From the NCBI RefSeq assembly GCF_001544015.1, contig NZ_AP014924.1, positions 2,108,001 through 2,172,000 of the forward strand: a stretch of 64,000 nt of DNA. The letters are read 5' to 3'. This DNA comes from Limnochorda pilosa (GTDB lineage: Bacteria; Bacillota; Limnochordia; Limnochordales; Limnochordaceae). Each line of letters starts with the position of its first letter. The first letter of the stretch is position 1. The notes under the pieces are model-generated. The model had not been told where the DNA came from. It saw nothing but the letters and a program-made list of their open reading frames with translations, and ran no database searches. The position numbers were made by a program, and so were the translations under genes. Positions 828 through 47,504 of this stretch are shown piece by piece.

Positions 828-897
828 TACGCCACACCTCCCCAGGCAAGCCGTTGCGTCGTGTCATCATGTCGTCTCATCGTCCCGCCGTGCGGTG

Positions 898-924
898 GGG
901 CCGGTGCGACGTACGCACCGGCCC
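898..924 (-). terminator. Intercistronic hairpin after binding-protein gene 1
   Basis: Perfect 11-bp inverted repeat (GGGCCGGTGCG / CGCACCGGCCC) with a 5-nt loop, 9 nt beyond the binding-protein stop and upstream of the permease. On the coding (minus) strand no T-run follows, so it more likely protects the binding-protein mRNA or partly attenuates than fully terminates. On the plus strand a TTTTT run follows the stem. Confidence 0.65.
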
Positions 925-932
925 GCCCTTTT

Positions 933-2198: not shown

Positions 2199-2331
2199 TG
2201 TCCAACCTCCCCTTTGATGGATGGTGTGACGTGCACACTTGATCTTGCGGGCATCGTTACAGGTGCGTGCCCATACTCCCCTTCAGCGGTCGCTCCAGCA
2301 TCGAGCCACCCTCGCTGGTTGGCGCGCGCCT

Positions 2332-3570: not shown

Positions 3571-3906
3571 CACGATCTTCCTGCCCCCGTCGTTGGTCGC
3601 CATCTCGCGTTGGAGGAAGAGCATCCGCAACCGTTACTTTGGGCGCCGAATTATCGGCAACCATCAGCCCCTCAGTCCAGGAGCTCACGCACTGCAACCT
3701 TGCCCTGTTTCGGGCGCGCCGGCGGATAGCCGCGCCAGGGTTCCGTGTTACTTCCTTCGTTGCCCGACAAAACTTCCCTCCTCGATCCATCCGATCCTTC
3801 TTTAGTCCGTCTAATCTGAGACTTACGGCCAGACATGTCGCCCGGGCTTACGACAAGCGAAGAGGTCCCTCCGGACCTCACCCTCAGGCAAGTACGGCCG
3901 TCCGCC

Positions 3907-12199: not shown

Positions 12200-12240
12200 C
12201 TTCTGCTACCTCCTCGCTCTGCACACAGACCACAAGCTCC

Positions 12241-13065
12241 CTATTCCTTCAGCGCTCCTTCCACAAGACCCGACACGATGTACCGCTCGAAGATGACGTA
12301 GAAGGCAACCGGAAGCAAGATGAAGATAGAGGTCATAATCATCAGTGAGCGCCACTCGATAAGGAACTGGCCCATGAACGAGGAGAGGCCCACGCTAGCT
12401 ACCCAGTTCTGAGCCGTATTAGTGAAAGTGTAGCCAAAGATGTACTCGTTCCATGCATCAAAGAAGGTCAGGATTGCTACCGTCACCAGGGCAGGACTCG
12501 CGAGCGGCAGCACGATGCGGCGGTAGACCCCCATCCGGGAGCTCCCGTCAATGAGGGCGGCCTCCTCCAGTTCCTTGGGCACTCTCTCGAAGAACCTGAC
12601 CAGGATCCACGTGGAAAGCGGAAGCGTGAGAGCCGTATCCGCGAGGATCAGGACCCCGAGGGTGTTGATCCAGCCAAGGTTGCTGAAGATGCGGAACATA
12701 GGCGTCACCAACAACGCCTGAGACATCATTTGGGTGCTTAGAACAAGGAGCAGTACCAAGTTCTTCCCCTTGAATGGGAGGCGCGCCAGCGCGTAGGCGC
12801 CCAAGCTGGAACAGATCAGATTGACTGCCACGGTGCCGCCGGCGACAAAGAGGGTGTTCCCCATCCATCGCCAGATCAGGGGGTGCTCGAAGACCTTTAC
12901 ATAGGCTTGCAACGAGAAGTCCGTCGGCAAGAACGGGGGCGGGTAAGCCAGAGGGTCTCCCATCGTCGTCCGGATCATCCAGTAGACCGGGAAGACTACC
13001 ACGAGGGCTGCCAGGAGCGAGAGCCCGATCTGAAGCGTTCGCAGGAGGTTCCGGTGCGCAGGCAT
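12241..13065 (-). CDS. Sugar-type ABC transporter permease, MalG type
   Basis: Membrane subunit of 274 residues with six predicted hydrophobic segments; the first covers about residues 12-32 (LSLLAALVVVFPVYWMI). The EAA loop ELEEAALIDGSSRMGVYRR followed by IVLPLASPA marks the ATPase contact. Its ATG at 13065 is 3 bp after the stop of the MalF-type partner, so the two are translationally linked. No ATPase gene is present in the cluster; a shared MsmX-like ATPase elsewhere is likely. Substrate is inferred from neighbouring enzymes (amino-sugar-acid type) and is unproven. Confidence 0.94.
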   Translation of the reverse strand: MPAHRNLLRTLQIGLSLLAALVVVFPVYWMIRTTMGDPLAYPPPFLPTDFSLQAYVKVFEHPLIWRWMGNTLFVAGGTVAVNLICSSLGAYALARLPFKGKNLVLLLVLSTQMMSQALLVTPMFRIFSNLGWINTLGVLILADTALTLPLSTWILVRFFERVPKELEEAALIDGSSRMGVYRRIVLPLASPALVTVAILTFFDAWNEYIFGYTFTNTAQNWVASVGLSSFMGQFLIEWRSLMIMTSIFILLPVAFYVIFERYIVSGLVEGALKE

Positions 13066-13068
13066 CAG

Positions 13069-13980
13069 CTATTCCTCGCTTTTCCGCATGATGAAGAAGT
13101 ACATCCCGGTCAGGACCAGAAGGATCAAGAGAACCACGGAGCCCATGGCATACGCGTAGCTCTTGTTGAGGTAGTCGAACGCGGTACGGTATACCCCGAT
13201 CACCACGGTCTCGGTCGCCCGCCCCGGGCCGCCGCCTGTCATCAGGTACAGAATGGTGAAGCGTTGGAAGGACCAGATCACCGTCAGGAGCACCAGCACG
13301 CTCAGAATGTTCCTGAGCCACGGCAGAGTGATGCTGCTGAACTTGCGCAGCCAGCCAGCCCCATCCATGTCGGCCGCTTCGTACAATTCGGCCGGCACGG
13401 ACCGTAACCCCGCTAAGATGACGAGCGTGTGGAGGGGGAAGAGGCGCCAAACGCTCACCGCGGAGACAGTGTAGAGGGCAAGCGACGGGTTCGTCAGCCA
13501 GCCCATCGGAAAGTCCGCCAGCCCCAGGCTCATAGCCGCGTAGTTAACGATGCCGTACTGGGGATCGAGCATCCATTTCCAGATCAAGGTCGCTGCAACA
13601 TCCGGTACGGCGTACGGCAGGGTTAGCAGGATCGCCATCACCCGGGCGCCGCGCCACTTCACATCGGCAAAGAGCGCCGTGGCAAAGCCTACGGCGAAGA
13701 TTCCCGCACCGTAGATCACAGTGTACCGCACCGTCAAGAGAAGGCTGTGCCAGAACTTACCATCGCCCCACAGGGTCTGGTAGTTCTCCAGGCCGACGAA
13801 AGCTCCTCGATTGTCGAAGAAGCTAAGACGTATGGCCGTGCCAAGTGGATAGACAAACACGAACAAGATGATCCCGACGAGGGGAAAGATCAAGGCGTAC
13901 GGAAACAACTGGCCGCGCCTCTGCACCAACCGCCGCCCGTATGGTTGTACCTCCACCGTCTTCGTAGCCGTTGTGGTCAC
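13069..13980 (-). CDS. Sugar-type ABC transporter permease, MalF type
   Basis: Membrane subunit, 303 residues from GTG 13980, which has GAGGTGG 5-6 nt upstream; GTG 13989 is the alternative but lies too close to that site. Hydrophobic segments begin around residue 30 (YALIFPLVGIILFVFVYPL) and the EAA loop is ELYEAADMDGAGWLRKF with ITLPWLRN. The gene begins about 33 bp after the 3' end of the group II intron, which separates it from its binding-protein gene. The downstream partner permease follows after 3 bp. Confidence 0.94.
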   Translation of the reverse strand: MTTTATKTVEVQPYGRRLVQRRGQLFPYALIFPLVGIILFVFVYPLGTAIRLSFFDNRGAFVGLENYQTLWGDGKFWHSLLLTVRYTVIYGAGIFAVGFATALFADVKWRGARVMAILLTLPYAVPDVAATLIWKWMLDPQYGIVNYAAMSLGLADFPMGWLTNPSLALYTVSAVSVWRLFPLHTLVILAGLRSVPAELYEAADMDGAGWLRKFSSITLPWLRNILSVLVLLTVIWSFQRFTILYLMTGGGPGRATETVVIGVYRTAFDYLNKSYAYAMGSVVLLILLVLTGMYFFIMRKSEE

Positions 13981-14050
13981 GTGTGCCACCTCGGTTTCAG
14001 AGTCTCAGCCCTTATCGGGTAGGAGACGGAGGCTCCCCCGCCGTCCTTCC

Positions 14051-32798: not shown

Positions 32799-33794
32799 AT
32801 GCTCTTTCCGACCGCGTTCCAGAAGGGCATGCACATATGTTCCTGCCATGGGTTGACGCAGCTGGAGATCGCTCGACGGCTGGGTGTCTCCCGCCCGACC
32901 ATCTCACGCCTGCTTCAAAGGGCCCGGGACATCGGCCTGGTCCGTATCACTATCTCGCAAGGCGTGGAGAACGTCACGGACCTCTCGAACATGCTCTGCC
33001 GCTTCTTTGACCTGAAGGAGGCGGTGGTCGTCCCGGCCGCCGCCACCATCCCGGACACACTCCGCCAGACCGTGGGGCACTCTGCGGCCTCCTACGTCCA
33101 GAACCTGTTGCGGCCCGGCGTCACTCTGGCCATCTCCTGGGGCATCACCCTCTACGAGACCGTCAAGGCCATGCGGCCGGAGCACGTGCCCGGAATGAAC
33201 GTGGTCCAGCTCGTGGGCGGGCTTGGCTCCACATCACCCGTGCTCCAGTCCTTCGACCTCGCCCGACGGGTCGCGGAGCTGCACGACGCCGAGTGCCACC
33301 CTCTCCACGCCCCTACCCGCGAGGCGCTGATGCGGGACATCAGCGTGCGGCGCAGCCTGGAGATGGCCCGTACGGCACAGGTAGCCCTGGTTGGGCTGGA
33401 CGCGCTCTGGCGGCACACCTCTCTGGTACGCGTCGACGGGCTGGGGGACCGTGAGCAACGCCTCCTCACCGAGGCCGGCGCAGCAGGCGAGTGCTGCTTT
33501 CATTTCTACACGATCGACGGCATCGAATGCGATACGGTGCTGAGCCAGCAGGTGATGAGCCTGAGCTTGGCGGAGCTTCGGGCACTCCCGCTGGTGGTGG
33601 GGGTTGCATCCGATCTGGACACCGTGGAGGCCATTCTGGGCGGCCTGCGTACTGGCGTGCTCGACGTCCTCATCGTCGACCAAGTTGCGGCCGAACGGAT
33701 CATCACCGAGGAAGAGGATCGACGCTCCCGCCTCGGCAAGGCAGATGGAGCCTCAAAGGCCTCGACGACCGCCGATGGGAGCACCGGGGCATGA
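32799..33794 (+). CDS. SorC/DeoR-type sugar-binding transcriptional regulator
   Basis: Predicted regulator of about 331 residues from ATG 32799; the start is uncertain (ATG 32829 and upstream TTG possible). The HTH GLTQLEIARRLGVSRPTISRLLQRA is intact, followed by the SorC sugar-phosphate-binding domain (AAATIPDTLRQTVGHSAASYV, LAISWGITLYETVKAM, NVVQLVGGLGS). The usual N-terminal LLYYxEGLTQ helix is degenerate (MHICSCHGLTQ). Its stop overlaps the start of a permease remnant by 4 nt (ATGA), so it once led an alpha-glucoside transport operon that is now collapsed. The regulator itself is open throughout. Confidence 0.85.
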   Translation: MLFPTAFQKGMHICSCHGLTQLEIARRLGVSRPTISRLLQRARDIGLVRITISQGVENVTDLSNMLCRFFDLKEAVVVPAAATIPDTLRQTVGHSAASYVQNLLRPGVTLAISWGITLYETVKAMRPEHVPGMNVVQLVGGLGSTSPVLQSFDLARRVAELHDAECHPLHAPTREALMRDISVRRSLEMARTAQVALVGLDALWRHTSLVRVDGLGDREQRLLTEAGAAGECCFHFYTIDGIECDTVLSQQVMSLSLAELRALPLVVGVASDLDTVEAILGGLRTGVLDVLIVDQVAAERIITEEEDRRSRLGKADGASKASTTADGSTGA

Positions 33795-33962
33795 ACCGCA
33801 GGCGATCCGACCTCTCCCTGGTCCTTCTCTTCCTGCTCCCCAGCTTCGCAGGCTTCCTGGTCTTCAACGGGCTGCCCCTCGTCGGCTCCCTGGCGCTGAG
33901 CCTGACCGAGTGGAACGTCCTGAGCCCACCCCGTTTCGTAGGGGCCGCCAATTACCTGCGTC
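33791..33962 (+). pseudogene. MalF-type permease remnant (N-terminus only)
   Basis: ATG 33791 overlaps the SorC stop. The 57 codons encode a normal permease start: MNRRRSDLSLVLLFLLPSFA, FNGLPLVGSLALSLTEWNVL and PPRFVGAANYLR. The reading then runs directly into the C-terminus of a binding protein in another frame. About 230 permease residues and most of the binding protein are deleted. Confidence 0.85.
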
Positions 33963-33965
33963 AAG

Positions 33966-34226
33966 ACCCGAATCGCCTCCGATTGGGAGCTGCCGGTGGT
34001 CCAGGACCGCGAGCTGCTCGCGCCGTACCTGCAGCAGGCTCCTCCGACCAACCGCGACGCGGTCTTCCAGGCGCTCGAGGACGTGGTGGTACCTCCGGTG
34101 ATCGCGCGCTTCAACGAGCTTACAGACCGGATCAACGCCCAGCTAGAGCTGGCGGTTGCCGGACGGTTGACCCCTCGACAGGCGCTCAGCGCCGCCCAGG
34201 CTGCCGCGAGGGACCCGATCGACTGA
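33966..34226 (+). pseudogene. Family-1 sugar-binding protein remnant (C-terminus only)
   Basis: The last 86 codons of a binding protein: SDWELPVVQDRELLAPYLQQ, PPTNRDAVFQALEDVVVPP, and the family end INAQLELAVAGRLTPRQALS. It joins directly to the permease N-terminal remnant, showing a deletion across both genes. Confidence 0.8.
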
Positions 34227-34271
34227 AGCAGGCGCGCCCGCCGGAGAACGTCGCGGCGGCGCGCCTCCACT

Positions 34272-34302
34272 CCGGCGGGACACCCCCAGGGTGCCCCGCC
34301 GG
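34272..34302 (+). terminator. Hairpin after the decayed binding-protein gene
   Basis: CCGGCGGGACACCC pairs with GGGTGCCCCGCCGG (14 positions, one A-C mismatch, 3-nt loop), 45 nt past the remnant stop and before the GH31 remnant. Same arrangement as the hairpins after the intact binding-protein genes. Confidence 0.65.
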
Positions 34303-34340
34303 GCTCCACCATCCTTCCCACGGAACGAGGTCATGGACCG

Positions 34341-34729
34341 ATGCTCACGTCGATCTCAGAGATCGTGCACCAGCCGGCCGGGTTGGACGTCCCCTTTCTT
34401 CACACATCCTGCGAGCGTTCGCCGCGCGACCCGCTCCCGGGAGAACGGGCAGGCCATTCCTCCTCGCCCTGGCCTACGCGCATCCCGATGAGGTAGACCC
34501 GGCGAGCCCCGGTGGCCTGGGCTACTACTTCGGGAGGGACATCGTCGTCCACCCCGTCACCGAACCCGACCAGGCTGAGTGGCCCATCTGGCTTCCCCCG
34601 GGAGACTGGGTGGATGTATGGGAGCCCAGCCAGACCTTGCCGGGTGGGTCCCACGTGGTCGACGTCCGCTCCATCACGGTCCCCGCCTTCGTCCGAGTCC
34701 AGGCGGCGAAGAAAAGACTGGGGATGTGA
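34341..34729 (+). pseudogene. Glycoside hydrolase family 31 (alpha-glucosidase) remnant, middle deleted
   Basis: ATG 34341 starts an N-terminal GH31-like piece (EIVHQPAGLDVPFLHTSCER followed by SPRDPLPGE) of about 36 codons. Near 34447 the sequence jumps, in another frame, to the GH31 C-terminus: RPFLLALAYAHPDEVD, GLGYYFGRDIVVHPVTEP, WPIWLPPGDWVDVW, ending at 34729. Some 600 residues including the catalytic aspartates are gone. It follows the SorC regulator, permease and binding-protein pieces and indicates a lost alpha-glucoside utilisation operon. Confidence 0.8.
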
Positions 34730-34846: not shown

Positions 34847-35236
34847 GTGAAGTGGCTCGATCTGGACAACGCGGTGCTGGTTAGTCTGAACCAGGTAACC
34901 TCCATCGAGGTGCGCCCCTCTGCGGAGGACGAGGACGAGGGCGAGCTTCTCATCGCCCTGAACGAGATGGCCAGCGGCATCGACTTGGCCATTGCACGCT
35001 TCCCGTCCTTCGAGGCCGCGCAAGCCGAGTTCGCCGGCATCAAGGATTGGCTCGCCGCCGAGGACGTGCTGCACACGGTCTCCGCGCCGTCGTGGGTGAT
35101 GCGGTCCGTCCACGAGCACGACGACGACTTTGACGACTACGATGACGAGGACGACGAAGACGACTATGATGACGACGATGAGGACGATGAGTTCGACGAA
35201 GACGACCTCGATGACGAGGATGAAGACAAGGACTGA
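34847..35236 (+). CDS. Hypothetical protein with poly-Asp/Glu tail
   Basis: Unrecognised protein of 129 residues. GTG 34847 follows CCAGGAGGG. Residues 1-85 look folded (LDLDNAVLVSLNQVTSIEVR, FPSFEAAQAEFAGIKDWLAA). From about residue 90 to the end almost every residue is Asp or Glu, with a few Tyr and Phe (DDDFDDYDDEDDEDD...). Such tails occur in histone-like chaperones, DNA mimics and some ribosomal or chaperone factors, but no family is assigned. The last 73 bp overlap the 3' end of an antisense HAD gene, whose C-terminus becomes poly-Ser. Coding is supported by the ribosome site and the ordered N-terminal half. Confidence 0.75.
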   Translation: MKWLDLDNAVLVSLNQVTSIEVRPSAEDEDEGELLIALNEMASGIDLAIARFPSFEAAQAEFAGIKDWLAAEDVLHTVSAPSWVMRSVHEHDDDFDDYDDEDDEDDYDDDDEDDEFDEDDLDDEDEDKD

Positions 35237-35946
35237 GGCCGCCGCCTCGCCAGCTCCCACAGCGCCCGAGGCGTCCGGCCTCGCAGCGACGACAGCCTGG
35301 GAACCTCGGCCGGGAAGACCTCGCCAGCCGTGAGCGGGTTCGGGACGACCACGCAGCGCAACCCGGCAGCCAGAGCGGCCCGCGCCCCGTTGGGTGAGTC
35401 CTCCACCGCCAGGGCCTCCGAGGCCTCCACGCCCAGCCGGCCCAGGGCCAGCAGGTAGAGGTCCGGCGCCGGCTTCACCCGGGCCACGTCGTCCGCGGTG
35501 GCCAGCACGTCGATGGCCGCGGTCAGGCCCGCCTGCTCCAGAAACCGTTCCACCCACGGGCGGCCCGAGCTCGAGGCGACCGCCAGGCCGAGCCCTTCCC
35601 GGCGCGCGGCCTCCACCAGCGCGACCACCCCGTCCCGTGGGCGCAACCTGGCCAGGTGAGCCGCGGCGGCCTGCTCCACCTCCGCCTCCAGGGCCCGCCG
35701 GTCCAGCCGATGCCCCACAAGCCCTTCCAGGTACGCGTAAGGGTCAAAGGCGTCCGGCGACGTGCCCACGCAGCGCATCCACTCCTCCAGGGGCAGCACG
35801 GCCCCCCTTCGGCCGTAGACCTCTTCCCAGGCGTCGTACAGCGCCGACTCCGTGTCGATGATGGTCCCGTCCAGGTCCAGCACCAGGGCGCGCAGATGAT
35901 CCGACCTCCGCTTCCATTGCTTGGGCGCATGCGTTGGGTGACGCAC
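35164..35946 (-). CDS. HAD-superfamily phosphatase (beta-phosphoglucomutase-like) with poly-Ser tail
   Basis: Subfamily IA HAD hydrolase of 260 residues: motif I LVLDLDGTIIDTESALYDAW, motif II VASSSGR, motif III lysine in RVKPAPDLYLLAL, motif IV VEDSPNGARAALAAG. The HAD fold ends near ARRRP; the following 22 residues are Ser with a few Arg and Asn because they are the antisense of the neighbouring poly-Asp/Glu codons. GTG 35946 is the chosen start but has no strong ribosome site. Substrate unknown; close relatives act on sugar phosphates. Confidence 0.9.
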   Translation of the reverse strand: MRHPTHAPKQWKRRSDHLRALVLDLDGTIIDTESALYDAWEEVYGRRGAVLPLEEWMRCVGTSPDAFDPYAYLEGLVGHRLDRRALEAEVEQAAAAHLARLRPRDGVVALVEAARREGLGLAVASSSGRPWVERFLEQAGLTAAIDVLATADDVARVKPAPDLYLLALGRLGVEASEALAVEDSPNGARAALAAGLRCVVVPNPLTAGEVFPAEVPRLSSLRGRTPRALWELARRRPQSLSSSSSSRSSSSNSSSSSSSS

Positions 35947-37596: not shown

Positions 37597-38709
37597 TCAC
37601 TCGTCGGTTGGACCGCCTCCTGTCTCCAACTCGGCCCGCATGACATAGACGTTGTACGGTCCGAACTGCGACATCAGGAAGTAGATCACCCGGCCGTCGT
37701 CTTCCACCCACGAAGGGGTCATGAACCCGCCGTAGAGGGACGGATACTTCGCGGCCTCGGATAGCGTATGGGGCCTGCTCCACGGCCCCCACGGCCGGGG
37801 AGCGGAGCGAAGCTCCATGTTGTGCGAGCGTTCGTTGAGGTACGTGTAGATCCAGCGGTCGAGGTACGGGTTCCAAAGGAGCGAACCCTCCCCCGCCGGG
37901 GCGGGGATCACCTCCACGGCCTCGGCGGGATCTCGGGACCATTGAGGCTGCCCGTCCGCGCCGGGGCCGCTGTAGTACTGATAGGCCCCGCGATCCAGGA
38001 TCTCCTCGGGCCTTACCCTCGCCGCCTTCACTCCTCCGAACCTTCCGGCAGGCGTCGCCAGGAGCCATAGATACCCCTCGGCGTTCCCGCGCCCGCGCTG
38101 CTGAGAGACGGCCAGCATGATGAACCCGCTCTCTTCTGGCCAGATCGGTGGGTCCACCACATGCCACGCCTCGCCCCGGTCGTCCGAGTACGCCCACGTG
38201 GCGTAATTCGCGTCCCACCGGCCGGGCGGCCCCCAGCGGCGCACCGACATGAACGCCATGTACAGGCGCCCGTCCACGGACGTGAGAGCCGTGGGGATCT
38301 TGGTTACCTCACCGCCAGCGTCGTTGCTCTCCTTGAGACCTGGAACGATTTCCCTGGCACGGCCGAGCTCGTCCGTGATCCAGCCGTCCAGGGTGATCCC
38401 GTCGGAAGGCTCCACGTCCGTCGTGCGCGCGAGCACGTTCGAGCGCCAGTTGGTCTTTCCGTATCCGAAGGTATCGCCGAAGGCGATGTAGATCGTACCA
38501 TCGACTTCAGCCAAGACCCCCAGATCGGTCCCGATCACGTCCACGCCCTCGGTGCGGTTGACCGAGCTCGAGCCTGTCAGCGGGGCGACTTGGGTGGTCC
38601 TGATTCCGACGATGGGATCGATCGGCTCGTCCGCTGCTCCCGCCCCCAAGGTGCCCCCGCACCACACGGTGGCGGCGAGGATCCACCACCCGACCCGTCC
38701 ACGCTGCAT
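37597..38709 (-). CDS. Secreted DUF4185 protein, GH183 endo-D-arabinanase-like
   Basis: Exported protein of 370 residues: signal sequence at 8-25 (WWILAATVWCGGTLGAGA), then a beta-propeller-like DUF4185 domain. Family features are GVDVIGTDLGVLAEVDGTIY, IAFGDTFGYGKTNWRSNVLA, AYSDDRGEAWHVV, WNPYLDRWIYTYLNERSHN and PSWVEDDGRVIYFLMSQFGP. DUF4185 members have been shown to be endo-acting D-arabinanases (family GH183), so a substrate such as actinobacterial arabinogalactan or lipoarabinomannan D-arabinan is plausible. It is the last catalytic gene of the operon with a sugar importer, a GH172-like enzyme and an arabinose/fucose isomerase. Activity is inferred from family and context; the catalytic aspartates were not verified. 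Confidence 0.82.
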   Translation of the reverse strand: MQRGRVGWWILAATVWCGGTLGAGAADEPIDPIVGIRTTQVAPLTGSSSVNRTEGVDVIGTDLGVLAEVDGTIYIAFGDTFGYGKTNWRSNVLARTTDVEPSDGITLDGWITDELGRAREIVPGLKESNDAGGEVTKIPTALTSVDGRLYMAFMSVRRWGPPGRWDANYATWAYSDDRGEAWHVVDPPIWPEESGFIMLAVSQQRGRGNAEGYLWLLATPAGRFGGVKAARVRPEEILDRGAYQYYSGPGADGQPQWSRDPAEAVEVIPAPAGEGSLLWNPYLDRWIYTYLNERSHNMELRSAPRPWGPWSRPHTLSEAAKYPSLYGGFMTPSWVEDDGRVIYFLMSQFGPYNVYVMRAELETGGGPTDE

Positions 38710-38746
38710 GACACGGCCTCCTCTCCCTTGTTTCCGTCCCAGGTCC

Positions 38747-39610
38747 TCATCCCTTGATCCCGGACATGGTGATGCTCGCCATCAACTGGCGCTGCAGGAG
38801 GAGGAAGACGACCAGGTTGGGCAGGACCGCGATGGTGTTCGCCGCCATCAGGTAACCCCAGGGGTTCTGGTACTGCCCTGAGAACCCGGCGATCCCGACC
38901 TGGACCGTCTTCATCTCCGTCGCGTTGGTGACCAGGAGCGGCCACAGGAAGCTGTTCCAGTTGGCAACGAAGAAGAAGACCGCGAGGGCCGCCATGATCG
39001 GCTTCGAGAGCGGGAGCACGATACGGAAGAAGATCCCCGCCTTGCTGCAACCGTCGATGGTGGCGGCCTCTTCGAGTTCGTGGGGGATCCCCAGGTAGAA
39101 CTGGTGCAACAGGAAGATCCCGAACGCGTTGGGGATCGCCGGAATGATGAGGGCCCAGTAGGTGTCAAGCCAGCCGAAGGCCCGTACCTCGATGTAGAGC
39201 GGGATCATGATGACCCAGAAGGGCACCATCAGGGTGCCGATGATCAACCCGAACAGCACCCTGCGCCCTCGGTAGCGGAGCCGGGCCAGCGAGTAGGCCG
39301 CCATGGAGTGGGTCAGGAGCGCAACGAGGGTGACCGTGATCGACACGAAACCTGAGTTGAACATCCACCGCGCGAAGGGCACCTGCTGGAAGACGTCGAC
39401 GAAGTGGTTCCAGTTCCACCTGCTTGGGATCCATACCGGGGGCACCGCGAAGATCTCGGACGGCCCTTTGAGCGCGCTGACGATCATCCAGTACAGCGGC
39501 AGGATGAACACCGCGGCCAGGAGCGAGAGGAGGAGGTGCCGCCACGTCTGGGCCCTGCGCCGAGCCGAACCGAACGGCTGGAGCAGCCCCGTCACCCGAG
39601 GTGACCTCAT
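38747..39610 (-). CDS. Sugar ABC transporter permease, MalG type
   Basis: Membrane protein of 287 residues with the first hydrophobic segment at about 24-45 (LLLSLLAAVFILPLYWMIVS) and the EAA loop ELEEAATIDGCSKAGIFFR followed by IVLPLSKP. Its ATG at 39610 overlaps the stop of the MalF-type partner by 4 nt (ATGA). Followed after 37 bp by the DUF4185 gene. Likely imports (oligo)saccharides released by the GH183/GH172-like enzymes; no ATPase is encoded in the operon. Confidence 0.94.
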   Translation of the reverse strand: MRSPRVTGLLQPFGSARRRAQTWRHLLLSLLAAVFILPLYWMIVSALKGPSEIFAVPPVWIPSRWNWNHFVDVFQQVPFARWMFNSGFVSITVTLVALLTHSMAAYSLARLRYRGRRVLFGLIIGTLMVPFWVIMIPLYIEVRAFGWLDTYWALIIPAIPNAFGIFLLHQFYLGIPHELEEAATIDGCSKAGIFFRIVLPLSKPIMAALAVFFFVANWNSFLWPLLVTNATEMKTVQVGIAGFSGQYQNPWGYLMAANTIAVLPNLVVFLLLQRQLMASITMSGIKG

Positions 39611-40479
39611 GCCACGCGGCCCCCTTTCAGCAAGCGGAAGAGTACGACCGACAACGCGACCTGAATGGCAAAGATCACCACGGTGATGGCCGAGGCATAG
39701 CCGAACTGGTAGTATCGAAACGCACTCTGGAAGGCGTAGAAGACCGTGGTGGTCGTGGCATAGAACGGACCCCCGCCCGTCAAGACGTATATCTGGTCGA
39801 AGACCTGGAAGCCTTGCAAGATGCTCATGACGAGCACGAAGAAGCTGGTGGGCTTCAGCAGCGGCAGCGTGACGTGCCAGAACTGCTGGAGCTTCGTGGC
39901 TCCATCCACCATCGCAGCGTGATAGTACTGCTCGGGGATGTCGTTCAGCCCCGCGATCAGGATGACCATGAAATAGCCCGCGGAAAGATAAAAGGAGAGC
40001 GACAGGACCACGCCCAGCGCCTGGGACATGGATCCAAGGAACGGCTGGCCGGGAAACCCCAACGTCTTGATGAGCCCGTTGATCAACCCGTTCGGCTGGA
40101 ACATGAACTTCCAGACGAAACCGACCACCACCAGCGAGATGGAGGCCGGCGCGAAGAAGACGGCCCGGTAGAAGCCGATCCCGCGTCCCTGATGCTGCAC
40201 CAGTAAGGCCAGCGCCATGGCGAGAACGAAGTTGCCGCCCACGAAGACGGCCACGTACCGGAACGTGATCCCAAGGGAGCGCAGGAAGATCGGGTCCTCG
40301 AACATGGTCTTGTAGTTGCTTAGGCCGACGAACGTCATGGGGCCCAGCCCGGACCAGTCGAACAGACTCAGGATGAGGCCCAGCACGGCGGGGGCGATGA
40401 CGAAGACCACCAGGCCCAGCAAGTCCGGCAAGACAAAGAGATAGCCTGTCGCGCGATCCGCCCACGTCCGGAACCGCAT
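39607..40479 (-). CDS. Sugar ABC transporter permease, MalF type
   Basis: Membrane protein of 290 residues from ATG 40479, with GGAGGTG 9 nt upstream; an in-frame ATG at 40551 is possible but lacks a good site and would overlap the intercistronic hairpin. Hydrophobic segments start at about residue 13 (YLFVLPDLLGLVVFVIAPAV). The EAA loop is QYYHAAMVDGATKLQQFWH with VTLPLLKP. Coupled to the MalG-type partner by a 4-nt overlap. Confidence 0.93.
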   Translation of the reverse strand: MRFRTWADRATGYLFVLPDLLGLVVFVIAPAVLGLILSLFDWSGLGPMTFVGLSNYKTMFEDPIFLRSLGITFRYVAVFVGGNFVLAMALALLVQHQGRGIGFYRAVFFAPASISLVVVGFVWKFMFQPNGLINGLIKTLGFPGQPFLGSMSQALGVVLSLSFYLSAGYFMVILIAGLNDIPEQYYHAAMVDGATKLQQFWHVTLPLLKPTSFFVLVMSILQGFQVFDQIYVLTGGGPFYATTTTVFYAFQSAFRYYQFGYASAITVVIFAIQVALSVVLFRLLKGGRVA

Positions 40480-40517
40480 TGGCGCGTTCACCTCCACTGA
40501 GCGCCCTGGGGATGGAA

Positions 40518-40557
40518 GGGGCGATGACAGCGTTTCCTGGGCAACTGCCATCGCCCC
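40518..40557 (-). terminator. Intercistronic hairpin after binding-protein gene 3
   Basis: GGGGCGATG and CATCGCCCC form a perfect 9-bp outer stem around a 22-nt apical region, 11 nt past the binding-protein stop and before the permease start. It matches the placement of the hairpins after the other binding-protein genes. Confidence 0.6.
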
Positions 40558-40567
40558 CGACCGAACG

Positions 40568-41821
40568 CTACCGAGCGCCCGTGTAGGTCCTCAGGAAGCG
40601 GTTGATCTGCGCTTCAGCGGTCTTGGCTGCCATCTCAGCGGGGACTCCACCGAACATCGTCCCCTGGAGCGCGTCGAGCAGGGCCCTTTGGACCTCCGGC
40701 GGGAACCGGGGTTCCGGGCGGGCCGCAGGCAGGATCTCCTCCGTGAAGACCTTCATCGGGCCCGAGTGGAAGTACTCCCGGTTCGCGTCCAGGATACTCT
40801 GCAGCGTGGGGAACTTGGAGTTCTTCTGGATGGTCCAGACCACGGGGAAGTCGGACTCGTAGAAGAGCCACCGGGTGAACTCCGCCGCGCCCTCAACGTC
40901 CTTCGACTTGGCGTTGATCACCTGCATCCAGCCGCCCGTCACGCTGACGCTCTCGCCTCCGCGCTCCTTGGGTGGCACAGGGAAGACGCCGTAGTTGAAG
41001 TCCGGATATTGCTCCTTGAGGATCTTCACAGCCCACATGCCGGTGACTTGCATGGCGCCGAATCCGCTGCCCAGCATGGTGACATCGTTGGCAGCGGCCG
41101 GCTGGCTCTTGGGGGAAACCCCGTGGACGTTCACCAGGTCGGACCAGAACTGCAGGGCGGCGACAGACTCGGGCGATGCGATCCGCGCTTGGGTCCACCC
41201 CTCGTCCATCACGTCGCCGCCAGCGGACCAGAGGAAGGGATAGAAGGTGAAGAGCTGGTAGAAGTCCGCGGCAGGCTCGATGACCAGTCCGAAGCGCTCC
41301 GGTGTGGTCAAGGCCTGGGCGACTCTCACGAGCTCGTCCCAGGACTGGGGGACCGCCAGACCCTTCTCTTCAAAGAGGTCCTTATCGTAGAAGACGGCAA
41401 GCGGCTCCAGCTCTACCGGCACGCCATAGATGCGCCCGTTGACCGTCGCCTTGTCGCGAGCAACCGGAACCAGGTCTTCCACCTGAGACGCGGTCAGGTA
41501 CGTGTCCATGGGCTCCAGGATCCCGTTGCTCACATAGCGGAGGAAGTCGCCGGGGCTGACCCAGAAAACATCGGGCCCCTGCCCCGACGCAAAGGCAGCC
41601 GTGAGGCGGGTGGTGGTGTACTCTGCCCATGGGATGCTCACGAATTCGACTTTGGGCGAGTGCGCTGCGTTCCACTGGTCGACGTACTCCTGTATGGTGG
41701 GATCGCCGTAGGTGTCTGCGAACTTCCAGAAGGTGATCGGTTCCGCGGCGAAGGCCGGCGCCGCGAGAGTTGCTGCCAGGGTCAACGCCAGCACCCATGC
41801 GACCAGACAGGCTCGCCTCAT
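40568..41821 (-). CDS. Sugar ABC transporter substrate-binding protein (family 1)
   Basis: Exported binding protein of 417 residues; signal sequence MRRACLVAWVLALTLAATLA ending near AFAAE. Family-1 features: ITFWKFADTYGDPTIQEYVD, ASGQGPDVFWVSPGDFLRYV, and the late SBP motif WMQVINAKSKDVEGAAEFTR. ATG 41821 follows GGGGAGGTC. It sits between the GH172-like gene and the two permeases. The natural ligand is predicted to be a D-arabino-oligosaccharide or D-arabinose-containing sugar (inference from neighbours). Confidence 0.94.
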   Translation of the reverse strand: MRRACLVAWVLALTLAATLAAPAFAAEPITFWKFADTYGDPTIQEYVDQWNAAHSPKVEFVSIPWAEYTTTRLTAAFASGQGPDVFWVSPGDFLRYVSNGILEPMDTYLTASQVEDLVPVARDKATVNGRIYGVPVELEPLAVFYDKDLFEEKGLAVPQSWDELVRVAQALTTPERFGLVIEPAADFYQLFTFYPFLWSAGGDVMDEGWTQARIASPESVAALQFWSDLVNVHGVSPKSQPAAANDVTMLGSGFGAMQVTGMWAVKILKEQYPDFNYGVFPVPPKERGGESVSVTGGWMQVINAKSKDVEGAAEFTRWLFYESDFPVVWTIQKNSKFPTLQSILDANREYFHSGPMKVFTEEILPAARPEPRFPPEVQRALLDALQGTMFGGVPAEMAAKTAEAQINRFLRTYTGAR

Positions 41822-41922
41822 CGTACGTATGACCTCCCCTTCGAGCTTTGTGATCCTTCACTTCCGTAACATGCTGTCTTACGCCAGCCCAGGCCCCTCT
41901 ACATCACCCCTTTCGGCGCCGG

Positions 41923-43014
41923 TCACAGAGACTCCGGGAAGTCAACCAGGGAAATGCTTTCCAGCGGTAGGCGATCCGCCACCGGCGGCAGCGGCAGAAA
42001 CGCGAGGTGCGGCTCGGTCTGGTACCAGTAGGCCGTGCTCGAGTAGTCGTCGCTCCGGTGGTTGGCGTGACCGTGCTCGATGGTGACTCGGATCGACTCG
42101 TTGAAGGTGATGGGGTCGACGATGTGATACCGGTACAGGGTGACCTTTCCACTCCAGTTGGGACCCCCGCCCAGGAGGATGCCGTAGTAGAGGGTCTGGA
42201 CCTCCTGCTGGGGGCACCAGGCGGTGCAGAAGTAGTCCTCGGTCCCGGTACCGTGCAGCGACGGCGGCCAGGGCTCTCCGTCGACGAAGATCATGTCGTC
42301 GCCTTCGCCGTACCAGTTCCACTCGCGGGTGAAGCGCAGGTTGTGGATGTTGAGGTTGCACCCCACGTAGTGGCCCCGCCCCCGAGCCTCAAGCAGCGTG
42401 TAGTTGCCCTCGCCCGTGGTGTTTTTGCCGCCGAAGCAGTAGAAGGCGTTGTCCACCGTTCGATCGTCGATCCCCTGGGTCAGCTCTCGCCGCCACATGG
42501 CGTGAAAGCGGAGCTCGTCGGCAGGAAGGGCGTCGTACGCTTCGTAGTCGATGTAGTAGTAGAACTTGACGTCCTGGCTGCTCTCGTTGTGCACGTGAAG
42601 CCGCGCGCCATCGGCAAAGGGCATCGGGAAGAAGCAGTTCATGGCCGCGCCGTTCTCGGGCCCCATGCTCAGGGCCGCGGAGGCGTAGTTCCGCGTCAGC
42701 CCGTGTCCCATGCCGAAGAAGTCGCCGTAGGGAGCCTCGACGCTGGGATGCTCCTCCCTGTCCCAGTAGAAGCGAAGCACCAGCCGGCGCGGAAGATAGG
42801 CTTCCGCGACGCCCGACTCGGGTGCGGTCGTCATCCAGATGTGGGTGATGCACCCGGCGCCCTCGATGGTAGCGATCTCAGCCTGCTCCCCCGCCCGGAT
42901 GGTCAGCCAGTCCCGGTTGCCACCCGTTCGATCGAAACTGGAGACGCGTCGCCGCCTACCGTGGCGCATGACCGACAACTCACGCAACGAAGAACCGATC
43001 CTCGGCACCGTCAT
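41923..43014 (-). CDS. DUF2961 protein, GH172-like glycoside hydrolase
   Basis: Cytoplasmic protein of 363 residues without a signal sequence. ATG 43014 follows GGGGGAG by 8 nt. The DUF2961 (GH172) core is clear: AGCITHIWMTT, LRFYWDREEHPSVEAPYGDF, FGMGHGLTRNYAS, NWYGEGDDMIFVDGEPWPPS, LHGTGTEDYFCTAWCP. The glutamates in EAPYGDFFG and GTGTEDYF are the likely catalytic ones by family analogy. Known GH172 enzymes act on alpha-D-arabinofuranosides or alpha-D-fructofuranosides. With a GH183-like protein and a D-arabinose-type isomerase in the operon, exo-D-arabinofuranosidase activity on imported fragments is the best guess. Confidence 0.88.
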   Translation of the reverse strand: MTVPRIGSSLRELSVMRHGRRRRVSSFDRTGGNRDWLTIRAGEQAEIATIEGAGCITHIWMTTAPESGVAEAYLPRRLVLRFYWDREEHPSVEAPYGDFFGMGHGLTRNYASAALSMGPENGAAMNCFFPMPFADGARLHVHNESSQDVKFYYYIDYEAYDALPADELRFHAMWRRELTQGIDDRTVDNAFYCFGGKNTTGEGNYTLLEARGRGHYVGCNLNIHNLRFTREWNWYGEGDDMIFVDGEPWPPSLHGTGTEDYFCTAWCPQQEVQTLYYGILLGGGPNWSGKVTLYRYHIVDPITFNESIRVTIEHGHANHRSDDYSSTAYWYQTEPHLAFLPLPPVADRLPLESISLVDFPESL

Positions 43015-43057
43015 GGTGGCTGCTCCCCCTCACTCGTCACTCTTGTGCCCTGCCTCC

Positions 43058-44485
43058 CTAGGCGACGACCACGGGCTCGATCCCCAGGTGCCAGCAGAAG
43101 GTGAGGAGCTCGGGCACCCAATCTCCATACACCCCGTGGATATGGTTGGCCGGGAAGCTTTGCAGGAACGTGTCGGCGCTGCACGCGAGCCGTACGAACG
43201 CGTGGGGCCAGTTGTCCTGCACCTGCGTGATGAGCCGGGCCTCCACGTCCGGATCCAGCCGCACGAACTCCCCTCGAACGACGTGCATCCGGTACTGGCG
43301 TCGCTCGCGGGTTAGCCGGGCCAGGGTCACGGGTCCGGGCTGCGCCACATGGAAGACCGAGGCGCCGCCGGCCGGGAAGAAGAAGTCCTGGGGCTTCAGC
43401 TCCACGTTCCGCAGGTTCGTCTCAGGGTCGAGGCTCCGGCCGGCGAAGTAGGTCGCGTGGGCGCCGGAGTTCACCAGGTCGAAGAGGCCGTGCTCCTTGA
43501 AGTAGTGGCGGACATCCGCGAAGAGGACCGGCGACCCCGTTGCGTGCTTGAAGACTTCCATCGTAAGCGCGGCGTCCATGTCCGCCTCCGTTGCACAGAC
43601 GATGGGGTCATGGGGACCGTCCCAGTCGTACGGGTCATTGAGGAACGCCTCTGCCACATCCATGGTGACGAAGTGCTCGGTGAGCTCCGGCTGGCTCTTG
43701 ATGCCCACGAAGTGAAAGCTCTTCTCGGCGATGATCTCCCGTAGGACGTCGTAGCTCGCGATCTGGAGGCGCAGCTTCTCGGGAGTGAGCTGCTGGCCAT
43801 CGTAGTGGACTTGCTTCACGTGGCCCTCCAGCCACCGTTGTGCCCTCTCGACCCTGGCGTTACCCGCAAGCTCTGTTGCCCTGCGAACGATCTCCCACTG
43901 ATCGACGTGTTCCACGTCGATCCCGAACTGCTCCGCCCAGAGGTCCGTCGGCGCCACGGCCGTGTTGATGCCGATGGCACGGCCGCCGAAGAGCCCGTAC
44001 GTCTCGCCGCGCAACGAGGCGACCGCATGGGCTCCCCGCACGAAGCTCAACACCTGCTGGAACACCGGCGCCTCCTCGATCTCGCCGAAGACGCGCCGGT
44101 AGCGGACGCCCATCTGATCCAGGGCTCCGGCGGCGGCCAGGACCGCGACCATACCGGGCTTCGCCGGGTTGACCTGCCCGAAGAGCAGGTAGGGCCCTGG
44201 TGCAAAGCGGGACGCCACCACCGAGAACTGCGGGAAGGCCCAGACCGCGTAGTTGAAGATGGTCGCTTCCACCCCTGCGACCTGCAGCTTGCGGGCCTCG
44301 GCCACGGCCGTCTCATTGGACCAGACGAGCTCCCCCGTTACCACATCGACGCCCGCCTCGACGAGCTTCCGGCGGAGCCTCTCCTCGTAGGCCTTGTTCT
44401 CCTGGATCTGCGGCTCGTGCGCGTAGGCACGGCCGTCAGAGAACGTCAAGATACCGACCTTCGGCCTGCGTGCCACAACAACCAC
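43058..44485 (-). CDS. L-fucose/D-arabinose isomerase-family protein
   Basis: A 475-residue sugar isomerase of the short L-fucose-isomerase-like group. Metal ligands expected in the family are visible: E300 (VCATEADMDAALTM), D324 (VLFADVRHYF) and a histidine near 448 (SFPANHIHGVYGDWVPELL). Related enzymes interconvert L-fucose/L-fuculose and D-arabinose/D-ribulose, because the two aldoses share configuration at C2-C4. It is the first gene of the operon, divergent from LacI and an FGGY kinase. No fuculose-phosphate aldolase is present, which favours D-arabinose. GTG 44485 is the chosen start; GTG 44476 is nearly as good. Confidence 0.87.
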   Translation of the reverse strand: MVVVARRPKVGILTFSDGRAYAHEPQIQENKAYEERLRRKLVEAGVDVVTGELVWSNETAVAEARKLQVAGVEATIFNYAVWAFPQFSVVASRFAPGPYLLFGQVNPAKPGMVAVLAAAGALDQMGVRYRRVFGEIEEAPVFQQVLSFVRGAHAVASLRGETYGLFGGRAIGINTAVAPTDLWAEQFGIDVEHVDQWEIVRRATELAGNARVERAQRWLEGHVKQVHYDGQQLTPEKLRLQIASYDVLREIIAEKSFHFVGIKSQPELTEHFVTMDVAEAFLNDPYDWDGPHDPIVCATEADMDAALTMEVFKHATGSPVLFADVRHYFKEHGLFDLVNSGAHATYFAGRSLDPETNLRNVELKPQDFFFPAGGASVFHVAQPGPVTLARLTRERRQYRMHVVRGEFVRLDPDVEARLITQVQDNWPHAFVRLACSADTFLQSFPANHIHGVYGDWVPELLTFCWHLGIEPVVVA

Positions 44486-44597
44486 ATCCCTTCTCGTCGC
44501 ATGGCCATGGTGTCGAGATCAACGCGTGCTGTACACGACCCGCCCCGGGACCCGCTCGTCCGGTTGTTGGCTTGTGCTAGGCTGCGTGGTGCTCATC

Positions 44598-44611
44598 TGG
44601 CATCGTTGCCA
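44598..44611. promoter_or_regulatory. LacI-type operator 1
   Basis: TGGCATCGTTGCCA, an almost perfect palindrome with the central CG expected for LacI-family sites, 113 bp upstream of the isomerase start. It overlaps a TTATAT (-10-like on the minus strand), so bound repressor could block the isomerase operon. Confidence 0.65.
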
Positions 44612-44806
44612 TATAACAGTTTTCGCCCACCGCCGAGGAACTCCTTCTCCCCTTCCCTCACTTCTTCACCACGACCTGAGCCCCACGCCGTGGTCGTGCG
44701 ATGAAACCCTTCGCGCAGCAAGTTTCCGCGATTCCAGCAAGCGCCGTCCTGTCGTTCCTCGTCCCCTGTGGGGCTGCAGGGAATCGCACGGCTGCTGGCG
44801 AATACG

Positions 44807-44820
44807 TGGCAACGCTATCA
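44807..44820. promoter_or_regulatory. LacI-type operator 2
   Basis: TGGCAACGCTATCA; its reverse complement TGATAGCGTTGCCA matches operator 1 at 11 of 14 positions, including CGTTGCCA. It lies 86 bp before the LacI-gene start and could provide autoregulation. Confidence 0.55.
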
Positions 44821-44905
44821 TGTCGAGCCCGCTTAGGGCTTCGTGCTCAGACCCCGGGGGCAGGCGCCGACCAGGCGGCTCCACCACCTGGCAGGAGGAA
44901 GGATC

Positions 44906-45964
44906 TTGGCCACCATCAAGGACGTGGCACGCGCGGCGGGCGTCTCACCTTCGACGGTGTCACGCGTCGTCCGCAACAGCGGATACGTGTCCGAGGAGGC
45001 CCGGGCGGCGGTCCTCGCCGCGGTCGAGCGACTGGATTACCACCCCAACGCCGTCGCCCGCAGCATGACCCAACAGCGAACGCACACGATCGGCGTCGTC
45101 ATCTCAGACATCGCCAACCCCTTCTTCCCTTCCGTGGTCAGGGGTATGGACGACGTCGCCCAGAGCAACGGCTACAAGCTGATCGTCTGTAACAGCGACG
45201 AGGACCCGGCCAAGGAACGGGATTTCGTCCGGGTGTTGCTCAGCCGGCAGGTGGACGGCCTCATCGTCGCCAGCACGGGCGGGGCCCTCCACGAGCTGGC
45301 CGCGGCCATGAACGACGGCGTGCCGGTCGTGCTCCTGGACCGCTTCCTGCGCCTTCCTGGCGCCGACGCGGTAGGCATCGACAACATCGACGCCGCCCAC
45401 CGGGCGGTGCGCCACCTGCTGGAGCTCGGCCACCGGCGGATCGGCATCATCTTGGGCCCGAACCACGTCCAGACCTCCAAGGCCCGGCTCGCCGGCTACC
45501 TGAAGGCCCTGCGGGCGTATGGTGTCCCGCCGGATCCGGCGCTCCAGCGCACAGGCGACTTCAAGGAGGCCGGCGGTTACAACCACACTCAGGCCCTTCT
45601 CGCCCTCGAACCCAGGCCCACCGCCCTTTTCACCACCAACAACCTCACGACCACCGGAGCCCTCATGGCGCTGCGCGAAGCCGGGGTCACCATCCCCGAT
45701 CAGATGGCCATCGTGGGCTTCGACGACATGCCCTGGGCCCGCATCGTCCGCCCTGCTCTGACGGTGGTGGAGCAGCCGACCTACCTGTTGGGCACCACGG
45801 CCGCCCAGCTGCTCTTCGCCCGGCTCAACGGCCGGGAGACGTCGCCGGTGGGGCGGATCGTGCAGCTGGAGGCGAACCTCGTGGTGCGCGAATCGTGTGG
45901 GGCGCGCCAGCACCGGTCGATCGACCAACAGGGTCACGCGTCCTCGGCGGCGCGTGCTCGATAA
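44906..45964 (+). CDS. LacI-family transcriptional regulator
   Basis: A 352-residue repressor. TTG 44906 follows AGGAGGAAGG, giving the canonical LacI start MATIKDVARAAGVSPSTVSR; the HTH is directly followed by YHPNAVARSMTQQRTHTIGV, the hinge. The periplasmic-binding-like domain includes VVISDIANPFFPSVVRGMDD, VDGLIVAST, and the late MAIVGFDDMPWARIVRPALT. It is divergent from the isomerase operon and 13 bp upstream of the FGGY kinase, with two operator-like palindromes in the 420-bp gap. The inducer is probably a pentose or pentulose of the pathway (inference). Confidence 0.95.
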   Translation: MATIKDVARAAGVSPSTVSRVVRNSGYVSEEARAAVLAAVERLDYHPNAVARSMTQQRTHTIGVVISDIANPFFPSVVRGMDDVAQSNGYKLIVCNSDEDPAKERDFVRVLLSRQVDGLIVASTGGALHELAAAMNDGVPVVLLDRFLRLPGADAVGIDNIDAAHRAVRHLLELGHRRIGIILGPNHVQTSKARLAGYLKALRAYGVPPDPALQRTGDFKEAGGYNHTQALLALEPRPTALFTTNNLTTTGALMALREAGVTIPDQMAIVGFDDMPWARIVRPALTVVEQPTYLLGTTAAQLLFARLNGRETSPVGRIVQLEANLVVRESCGARQHRSIDQQGHASSAARAR

Positions 45965-45977
45965 GGAGGCCTAACCC

Positions 45978-47504
45978 ATGGAGCACCTCATCGGTCTCGA
46001 CATCGGAACCCAGGGGACCAAGGCGGTGGTGGTCCGACGCGACGGCCGTGTGCTCGGCTCGAGCTACGTAGGCTACGACGTGGATCAGCCCCGGCCCCTC
46101 TGGGCCGAGCAGTGGCCCGACGTCTGGCTCGACGCCTCCTACCAAGCGATCCGCGACGTGCTGGACCGTTCGGGCGCGGCGCCGTCGGAGGTGGCTGGCC
46201 TCGCGATCAGCAGCCTCTACGGCGGCTCGGGGATTCCCGTGGATCGGGACCTCCAGCCCCTGGCCCCCTGCCTCATCTGGATGGACCGGCGCGCTTCGGC
46301 GGAGGTGCGCTGGGTGCAGGAGCACGTGGACCTGGAACGCCTCTACCGGATCACCAGCAACACGGTGGACTCTTACTACGGTTTCACAAAGATCCTGTGG
46401 ATCAAGAACAACCTGCCCGACGTCTGGGAGAAGACCCACCTCTTCCTGCCGCCCAACGCGTACGTGATTCACCGGCTCACGGGGGAGGTGGCCATCGACC
46501 ACACCTCCGCCGGCAACCTGGGCGGCCTCTACGACGTTCACCGGCGGGCCTGGAGCGAGGAGATGGCCGAGGCGTTGGGGATCCCCCTGGGGCTGATGCC
46601 GCAGCGGATCGTGGCCTCGCAGGACGTCGTCGGACGGGTCACCGCTGAGGCGGCGCGCGCCACAGGGCTTACGGAGGGCACCCCGGTGGTGGCCGGCGGC
46701 GTCGACGCCCCCGTGGCGACCCTCAGCGCCGGCGCCTTCCGTGAAGGCCACCACGTGGCCATGGTGGGCACCTCCATGTGCTGGGGCTTCATCACCGACC
46801 GGACCAACCTCACGCCCGCCCTGGTGAGCTACCCGCACGTCGTGGATCCCATGCACACCCTCTACACCTTCGGTGGCGCGGCGACGGCCGGCGCCGTGGT
46901 CCGGTGGTTCCGGGACGTCCTGGGCCGGCCCGAGAAGGAGGCCGCCGAGCGCCTGGGGGTGGACGCCTACTCCCTGCTCGAGCTTGAGTCCATGCAGGTC
47001 CCGGCGGGCTCGGACGGTCTCCTGGTCCTCCCGTACTTCATGGGCGAGCGCTCGCCCATCTGGGACGGAAACGCCCGGGGTACCGTTCTGGGGCTGAGCC
47101 TCTACCACTCCAAGGCCCACCTCTACAAGGCGTTCATGGAGGGTGTGGCCTTCGCCTTGCGCCACAACATGGAGAGTGCTCCAGGGGTGGACCTCGACCG
47201 CGAGATGATCCTGGTGGGCGGGGCGGCCAAGTCCATGGTCTGGCCCCAGATCTTCGCCGACGTCACCGGCTTCCCGGTGCGTACCGTGGAGCAGGACGTG
47301 GAGGCGCCGCTGGGCGACGCCCTGCTGGCGGGCCTGGGAACCGGCGTGGTCGACCACCCCGAGGCCTTGCTGGGCTGGCTCACCTACCGGGAACCCGTGC
47401 GGCCCCGGGAAGAGCTGAAGCCGCTCTACGACCACCTCTTCGAGGAGTACAAGGCGCTCTATACCAGCCTCAAGGGCAACATGGCGCGGCTCTACGGGGC
47501 GTGA
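45978..47504 (+). CDS. FGGY-family pentulose kinase
   Basis: Carbohydrate kinase of 508 residues. ATG 45978 follows AAGGAGG. The N-terminal phosphate loop is IGLDIGTQGTKAVVV (about 5-19); the catalytic aspartate region is GGVDAPVATLSAGAF; the C-terminal FGGY signature region includes YKAFMEGVAFALRHN and ILVGGAAKSMVWPQIFADVT. Overall it is closest to xylulokinase-like members. In the context of a D-arabinose/L-fucose isomerase, a D-ribulokinase giving D-ribulose 5-phosphate is the logical role. It is co-transcribed with LacI. Confidence 0.92.
   Translation: MEHLIGLDIGTQGTKAVVVRRDGRVLGSSYVGYDVDQPRPLWAEQWPDVWLDASYQAIRDVLDRSGAAPSEVAGLAISSLYGGSGIPVDRDLQPLAPCLIWMDRRASAEVRWVQEHVDLERLYRITSNTVDSYYGFTKILWIKNNLPDVWEKTHLFLPPNAYVIHRLTGEVAIDHTSAGNLGGLYDVHRRAWSEEMAEALGIPLGLMPQRIVASQDVVGRVTAEAARATGLTEGTPVVAGGVDAPVATLSAGAFREGHHVAMVGTSMCWGFITDRTNLTPALVSYPHVVDPMHTLYTFGGAATAGAVVRWFRDVLGRPEKEAAERLGVDAYSLLELESMQVPAGSDGLLVLPYFMGERSPIWDGNARGTVLGLSLYHSKAHLYKAFMEGVAFALRHNMESAPGVDLDREMILVGGAAKSMVWPQIFADVTGFPVRTVEQDVEAPLGDALLAGLGTGVVDHPEALLGWLTYREPVRPREELKPLYDHLFEEYKALYTSLKGNMARLYGA

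Follow-up and report, generated by a model that had tools for sequence, protein, structure and literature searches.

A putative LacI-controlled D-arabinan utilisation locus in Limnochorda pilosa, a member of the Bacillota

The stretch of DNA analysed here (the window, 64,000 nucleotides) spans positions 2,108,001-2,172,000 of the 3,817,036-base single-contig genome of Limnochorda pilosa, order Limnochordales, phylum Bacillota. Between 37.6 and 47.5 kb its open frames form eight genes, all intact, in two divergent transcription units, which a preliminary description (37597-47504) had linked to the use of D-arabinan, a polymer of mycobacterial cell walls built from the mirror-image form of arabinose. 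On the minus strand the order of transcription is isomerase, GH172 hydrolase, sugar-binding protein, permease, permease and GH183 hydrolase, with gaps of 17-102 bp; the plus-strand unit consists of a LacI-family regulator and, 14 bp on, an FGGY kinase. Pfam bore out the gene set and the domains as named there, and family searches of the whole genome found these to be its sole GH183 and sole GH172 genes. Promoter and terminator scans yielded no signal above chance.

The GH183 gene (37597..38709, minus strand) encodes a secreted DUF4185 protein of 370 amino acids, a predicted endo-alpha-D-arabinanase. The domain covers its full length (Pfam 6.8e-87, 292 bits against a cut-off of 39.5), the N-terminus is signal-like as judged by eye (MQRGRVGWWILAATVWCGGTLGAGA-ADE), and the closest solved structures are those of EndoMA1 (PDB 8hhv/8ic1, 2e-55), at 42% identity. 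EndoMA1 is a crystallised endo-alpha-D-arabinanase with eight described active-site residues: the nucleophile D33, the acid/base D51, E243, and the substrate contacts W138, P141, R198, L292 and Y293 (PMC10509167). All eight are kept here (D62, D79, W159, P162, R223, E274, L325 and Y326), with D62, D79 and E274 aligning with D33, D51 and E243, the two catalytic aspartates and the third essential glutamate. An AlphaFold model (pLDDT 74) adopts a beta-propeller fold like that of EndoMA1; Foldseek placed the two EndoMA1 entries first (8e-30; TM 0.76 to 8ic1), followed by the Mycobacterium tuberculosis endo-D-arabinofuranase AraH2. The protein stops after the catalytic domain and therefore lacks the C-terminal putative carbohydrate-binding module (CBM) of EndoMA1. 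By family, active site and modelled fold, the 37.6 kb product can be assigned to the GH183 endo-D-arabinanases, its endo-activity being predicted.

The GH172 gene (41923..43014, minus strand) encodes a DUF2961 protein of 363 amino acids (Pfam 6.6e-83, 278 bits against a cut-off of 27) in which no signal sequence is apparent by eye. Its closest solved chains are 4kq7 (BACUNI_00161; 1.5e-87) and 8ah3 (1.3e-84); the latter bears the label DG02479, which we read as DgGH172c (HMPREF9455_02479), an enzyme active on p-nitrophenyl alpha-D-arabinofuranoside (PMC10115798). The catalytic glutamate pair is kept (E237 and E259). The third-best PDB match, at 9.7e-80, is the fructofuranosidase aFFase1 of Bifidobacterium dentium, a member of GH172 that likewise adjoins ABC (ATP-binding cassette) transporter genes (PMC8605356), and both facts would suit a locus for alpha-D-fructofuranosides of the difructose dianhydride type, in which the GH172 protein worked as aFFase1 does beside an ABC importer. 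The choice between arabinofuranose and fructofuranose is, however, explained by one position, at which Gly299 of aFFase1 admits fructose and Asn253 of the arabinofuranosidase ExoMA1 blocks it (PMC10509167). Here that position is Cys267, not glycine, as it is cysteine in 8ah3, 4kq7 and the rest of the clade, and the cysteine of 4kq7 apparently clashes with fructose (PMC8605356). In the tree the window protein falls inside a supported eight-row clade (95/92), outside the aFFase1 branch and closer to 8ah3 than to aFFase1; the clade members L043, L051, L085 and L092 come from loci with an isomerase or GH183. Fructose, moreover, needs no aldose isomerase, and GH183 is a D-arabinanase family whose active-site residues are all present in the neighbouring protein. 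We consider a fructofuranoside locus very improbable and reject it on Cys267; the 41.9 kb product is predicted instead to be a cytoplasmic GH172 exo-alpha-D-arabinofuranosidase. The profile searches and the comparison of catalytic acids proposed in the preliminary description came out as it had anticipated, for GH183 and GH172 alike.

The first gene of the minus-strand unit (43058..44485; 475 amino acids) encodes an aldose-ketose isomerase with three fucose-isomerase domains in Pfam, described earlier as an L-fucose/D-arabinose isomerase homologue. The family assignment stands; the protein is not a canonical FucI but a short relative, about 115 residues shorter, which scores far under the cut-offs of the NCBIfam FucI equivalogs (108 against 775 bits and 93 against 850 bits). 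Glutamate, aspartate and histidine serve catalysis in FucI, and all three are retained, as E300, D324 and H448; D-arabinose is its probable substrate. In a scan, 80 loci spread over many phyla encoded homologues with 47-74% identity. Besides the window, 16 of the 88 isomerases in the tree have GH172 in the same locus, a few of these coming from one genome or being identical copies, and GH172 is present in just 25 of 398 Bacillota genomes; since the isomerase and genome samples differ in make-up, the comparison is an indication of association and not a formal test. Short-isomerase relatives in two Thermotogota loci (L030 and L045) lie with RbsABC-type transport, transaldolase-like and PfkB-like genes (named by eye), L030 having in addition a class II aldolase and a gene that by eye is rhamnulokinase-like, a context that points to some other sugar as the substrate of that branch.

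The kinase gene (45978..47504, plus strand; 508 amino acids; FGGY_N 3.9e-59, FGGY_C 2.2e-33) encodes a XylB-like protein, a predicted D-ribulokinase, and the kinases adjoining the isomerase in loci L085 and L051 are XylB-like too. We infer the step to D-ribulose 5-phosphate, because the isomerase family is seen in other sugar contexts and the kinase is XylB-like. The fucose enzymes of Escherichia coli K-12 handle D-ribulose differently, phosphorylating it at C1 before an aldolase cleaves the product to dihydroxyacetone phosphate and glycolaldehyde, and the same could happen here, with hydrolases and importer unchanged, if an unlinked class II aldolase did the splitting. The genome does hold a putative one (G000:1577759), whose nearest models are those for ribulose-1-phosphate aldolase (203 against 300 bits) and L-fuculose-phosphate aldolase (192 against 264 bits), so that the absence of a fuculose-phosphate aldolase noted in the preliminary description can be stated for the locus alone. 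Yet the locus itself contains no aldolase gene, the kinase is far from L-fuculokinase (150 against 471 bits), and a comparable locus in another member of the Bacillota (G389) combines a GH172 of the same clade (60% identity) and a LacI gene with a canonical FucI (1062 bits) and a ribulokinase above its cut-off (710 bits), on an 11-kb contig where no aldolase was seen. Because a different isomerase and kinase have there been recruited to the same GH172 clade, that locus strongly supports the route through D-ribulose 5-phosphate, and cleavage of a C1-phosphate is very improbable.

Between the two hydrolase genes lie those for a sugar-binding protein with a signal-like N-terminus (40568..41821, minus strand; SBP_bac_1/SBP_bac_8, 2.8e-40 / 3e-31) and two ABC sugar permeases, one UgpA/MalF-like (39607..40551, minus strand; PF00528, 7.9e-12) and one UgpE/MalG-like (38747..39580, minus strand; PF00528, 8.8e-17), the second scoring 150 bits, under the cut-off, with the UgpE model. 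No ATPase gene is found within the unit; in the whole genome a MalK-type OB domain is encoded by a single gene (UgpC/MsmX-like; UgpC 491 against 432 bits), about 0.9 Mb away. MsmX of Bacillus serves several importers, and by analogy this lone MalK-type ATPase would do the same.

The regulator (44906..45964, plus strand; PF00356 8.2e-21, Peripla_BP_3 5e-38) has an inferred TTG start at 44906, preceded by the ribosome-binding-like stretch aggagga, in an open frame that begins at 44843. The 420-bp divergent region holds two candidate LacI-type operators, one upstream of each unit: TGGCATCGTTGCCA (44598..44611), 113 bp upstream of the isomerase start, and TGGCAACGCTATCA (44807..44820), 86 bp upstream of the inferred LacI start. 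The pattern TGGCANCGNTNNCA, picked after the sites had been seen, is expected 0.18 times in the window, where these two intergenic sites are its sole occurrences; they give three matches when strands are counted, a number reached in 0 of 100 shuffles. For a looser general pattern, TGNNANCGNTNNCA, 0.58 matches would be expected in the window; it has four, every one between 41.0 and 44.9 kb. The LacI protein would act through these candidate sites.

Much of the locus recurs elsewhere. Another Bacillota genome (G302) carries one cluster in the order GH183-GH172-LacI-binding protein-permease-permease, at 50% identity for GH183, 64% for GH172, 42% for LacI, 44% for the binding protein, 43% for the UgpA/MalF-like permease and 55% for the UgpE/MalG-like one. 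In Speluncibacter (L085), an actinomycete of the mycobacterial order, GH183 occurs with an isomerase of the same family (50%), a XylB-like kinase (36%), GH172 (58%) and a second, divergent GH183-like gene, and a Rubrobacteraceae locus (L051) combines binding protein, permeases and GH172 (39-61%) with an isomerase and kinase 5 kb further on. As the same families regroup in unrelated genomes, we reject a chance grouping. GH183 was found in 3 of the 398 Bacillota genomes, two of which have GH172 in the same cluster; 72 other genomes of the class that were searched gave no full-length GH183 match, two of them having one weaker match each above the cut-off. A genome of the same order (G264) encodes an isomerase and a GH172 protein with the very sequences found in the Limnochordales isolate Bu89. 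Horizontal acquisition of the locus is likely.

Two sets of GH183 relatives deserve record in their own right. A protein family without a Pfam hit but with a Tat-like N-terminus, present in two isomerase loci (L085:15400-17223 and L067:11143-12096), has 25% identity to the window GH183 (E 1e-13) and is possibly a divergent GH183-like family; L085:15400-17223 folded alone gave a useless model (pLDDT 33). On a plasmid of the marine alphaproteobacterium Tateyamaria omphalii (L140, NZ_CP019313.1, 676-10017), a DUF4185 gene sharing 36% identity with the window GH183 is accompanied, with sulfotransferase genes further on, by a DprE1-like gene (417 bits of 500; PDB DprE1 4e-77) and DprE2-like, UbiA/phosphoribosyltransferase-like and GtrA genes, an apparent set for D-arabinofuranose-donor synthesis whose product may be a D-arabinofuranose surface glycan.

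Taken together, families, active sites and gene order, as sequence and structure comparison show them, make it very probable that the locus serves LacI-controlled use of D-arabinan (alpha-D-arabinofuranan) through D-ribulose 5-phosphate. The secreted GH183 enzyme would cut extracellular alpha-D-arabinofuranan, of presumed mycobacterial origin. The resulting oligosaccharides would enter through the binding protein and two permeases, with the shared UgpC/MsmX-type ATPase from elsewhere in the genome supplying the energy, and cytoplasmic GH172 would free D-arabinose at their non-reducing ends. The FucI-like isomerase would then convert D-arabinose to D-ribulose, and the FGGY kinase D-ribulose to D-ribulose 5-phosphate, which would enter the pentose phosphate pathway. 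The functional order put forward in the preliminary description, from outside cutting through ABC import and inside trimming to isomerisation and phosphorylation, is thereby well supported in outline by active-site residues, structure comparison, the GH172 tree and the neighbourhoods in unrelated genomes.

Some observations weigh against this reading. The top model for the kinase is XylB, itself below cut-off (306 against 380 bits), and not ribulokinase, and the protein stays under the ribulokinase and pentulose kinase cut-offs (PRK04123, 174/428; TIGR01315, 109/409); of the FGGY pentulose kinase described earlier, FGGY holds and the pentulose kinase models do not reach their cut-offs, which weakens the kinase's name and not its role. 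In G302 the closest isomerase (42%) lies about 22 kb off, by ribose-type ABC genes and a DhaK gene, and the catabolic half is therefore not conserved there. FucI-type enzymes, finally, take both L-fucose and D-arabinose, and relatives of the isomerase adjoin ribose-type ABC, TRAP, DHDPS-type aldolase, GH2 and, in L030 and L041, class II aldolase genes, so that family membership alone cannot fix the sugar. The accepted sugars, and the class II aldolases near some of these relatives, would also fit a locus for L-fucose or free D-arabinose beside which the hydrolases are incidental, but no other copies of these hydrolases exist in the genome, and they are found again together with the same importer and regulator in G302 and together with an isomerase of the same family in L085; with no linked aldolase and a kinase so distant from fuculokinase, we regard such a locus as highly unlikely and reject L-fucose as its substrate. 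L-arabinose was likewise rejected, a separate set at 2.24 Mb having an L-ribulose-5-phosphate 4-epimerase that scores above its cut-off and a further short isomerase.

If D-arabinan use is indeed the function, D-arabinofuranose glycans would seem to be a real carbon source outside animal hosts. Ethambutol blocks the synthesis of mycobacterial D-arabinan, and enzymes that cut this polymer have been identified only recently; with just one GH183, small and CBM-less, the locus of this free-living firmicute offers a simple set of enzymes with which mycobacterial glycans could be trimmed, and the recurring GH172-isomerase pair gives a testable rule by which a widespread family of short FucI-like isomerases could be named. 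More tentatively, and with the odds somewhat against it, D-arabinan scavenging may extend beyond actinobacteria and gut Bacteroidota as a transferable module of GH172, FucI-family isomerase and FGGY kinase, to which GH183 is added in some hosts, recurring in Bacillota, Rubrobacteraceae, Thermotogota, Chloroflexota and others and fed in part by non-mycobacterial D-arabinofuranose glycans.

Elsewhere in the window, an open frame at 33491-34729 joins a truncated ABC-permease-like start to a GH31 C-terminal domain (2e-8) and looks like a decayed remnant of another sugar-uptake locus, and at least two more clusters (3-3630 and 11039-13989) contain homologues of ABC sugar-binding proteins or permeases. 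On the minus strand, a frame for a HAD-family phosphatase (35164-35946) closes with a long run of serines, which lies antisense to the Asp/Glu-rich end of the opposite-strand frame 34847-35236.

An ABC-based Gram-positive version of such a locus had been thought undescribed; it is already on record in Microbacterium arabinogalactanolyticum, with proposed ABC import, GH172 inside the cell, and an isomerase and a kinase, both putative, in a layout called typical for Gram-positive bacteria, with similar clusters in other actinobacteria and Dysgonomonas gadei (Shimokawa et al. 2023, PMC10509167). A full-text literature search, covering neither subscription journals nor preprints, found no description from Bacillota, a weak absence. 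The L. pilosa genome (3.8 Mb) has no PF04685 match, hence no GH116, the exo-beta-D-arabinofuranosidase accessory for beta-capped ends; beta-D-arabinofuranose caps should therefore block complete digestion, and probably either beta-linked ends stay undigested or the target polymer has none. Like the Microbacterium locus, this one unites a secreted GH183 (signal judged by eye), an ABC importer with an SBP_bac_8-type binding protein, a signal-less GH172 and a putative isomerase-kinase pair ending at D-ribulose 5-phosphate; unlike it, it has one GH183 without a CBM in place of four DUF4185 genes, a GH172 that in the tree sides with 4kq7 and 8ah3 and not with ExoMA1, no GH116, a Bacillota host, and LacI and kinase genes divergent from the rest (PMC10509167). 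D. gadei PUL42 shares a GH172 related to 8ah3 (DG02479), but it is a polysaccharide utilisation locus (PUL) of the Bacteroidota whose enzymes include several of GH172 and a putative one of GH116, and for which such an ABC importer is not described (PMC10115798). The B. dentium aFFase1 locus also sets a cytoplasmic GH172 by an ABC importer, but its enzyme is a fructofuranosidase with Gly299, and neither GH183 nor an aldose isomerase is described there (PMC8605356). What is new in L. pilosa is the host, in the Limnochordales of the Bacillota, the one CBM-less GH183 and the genome without GH116; the layout itself is known from actinobacteria.

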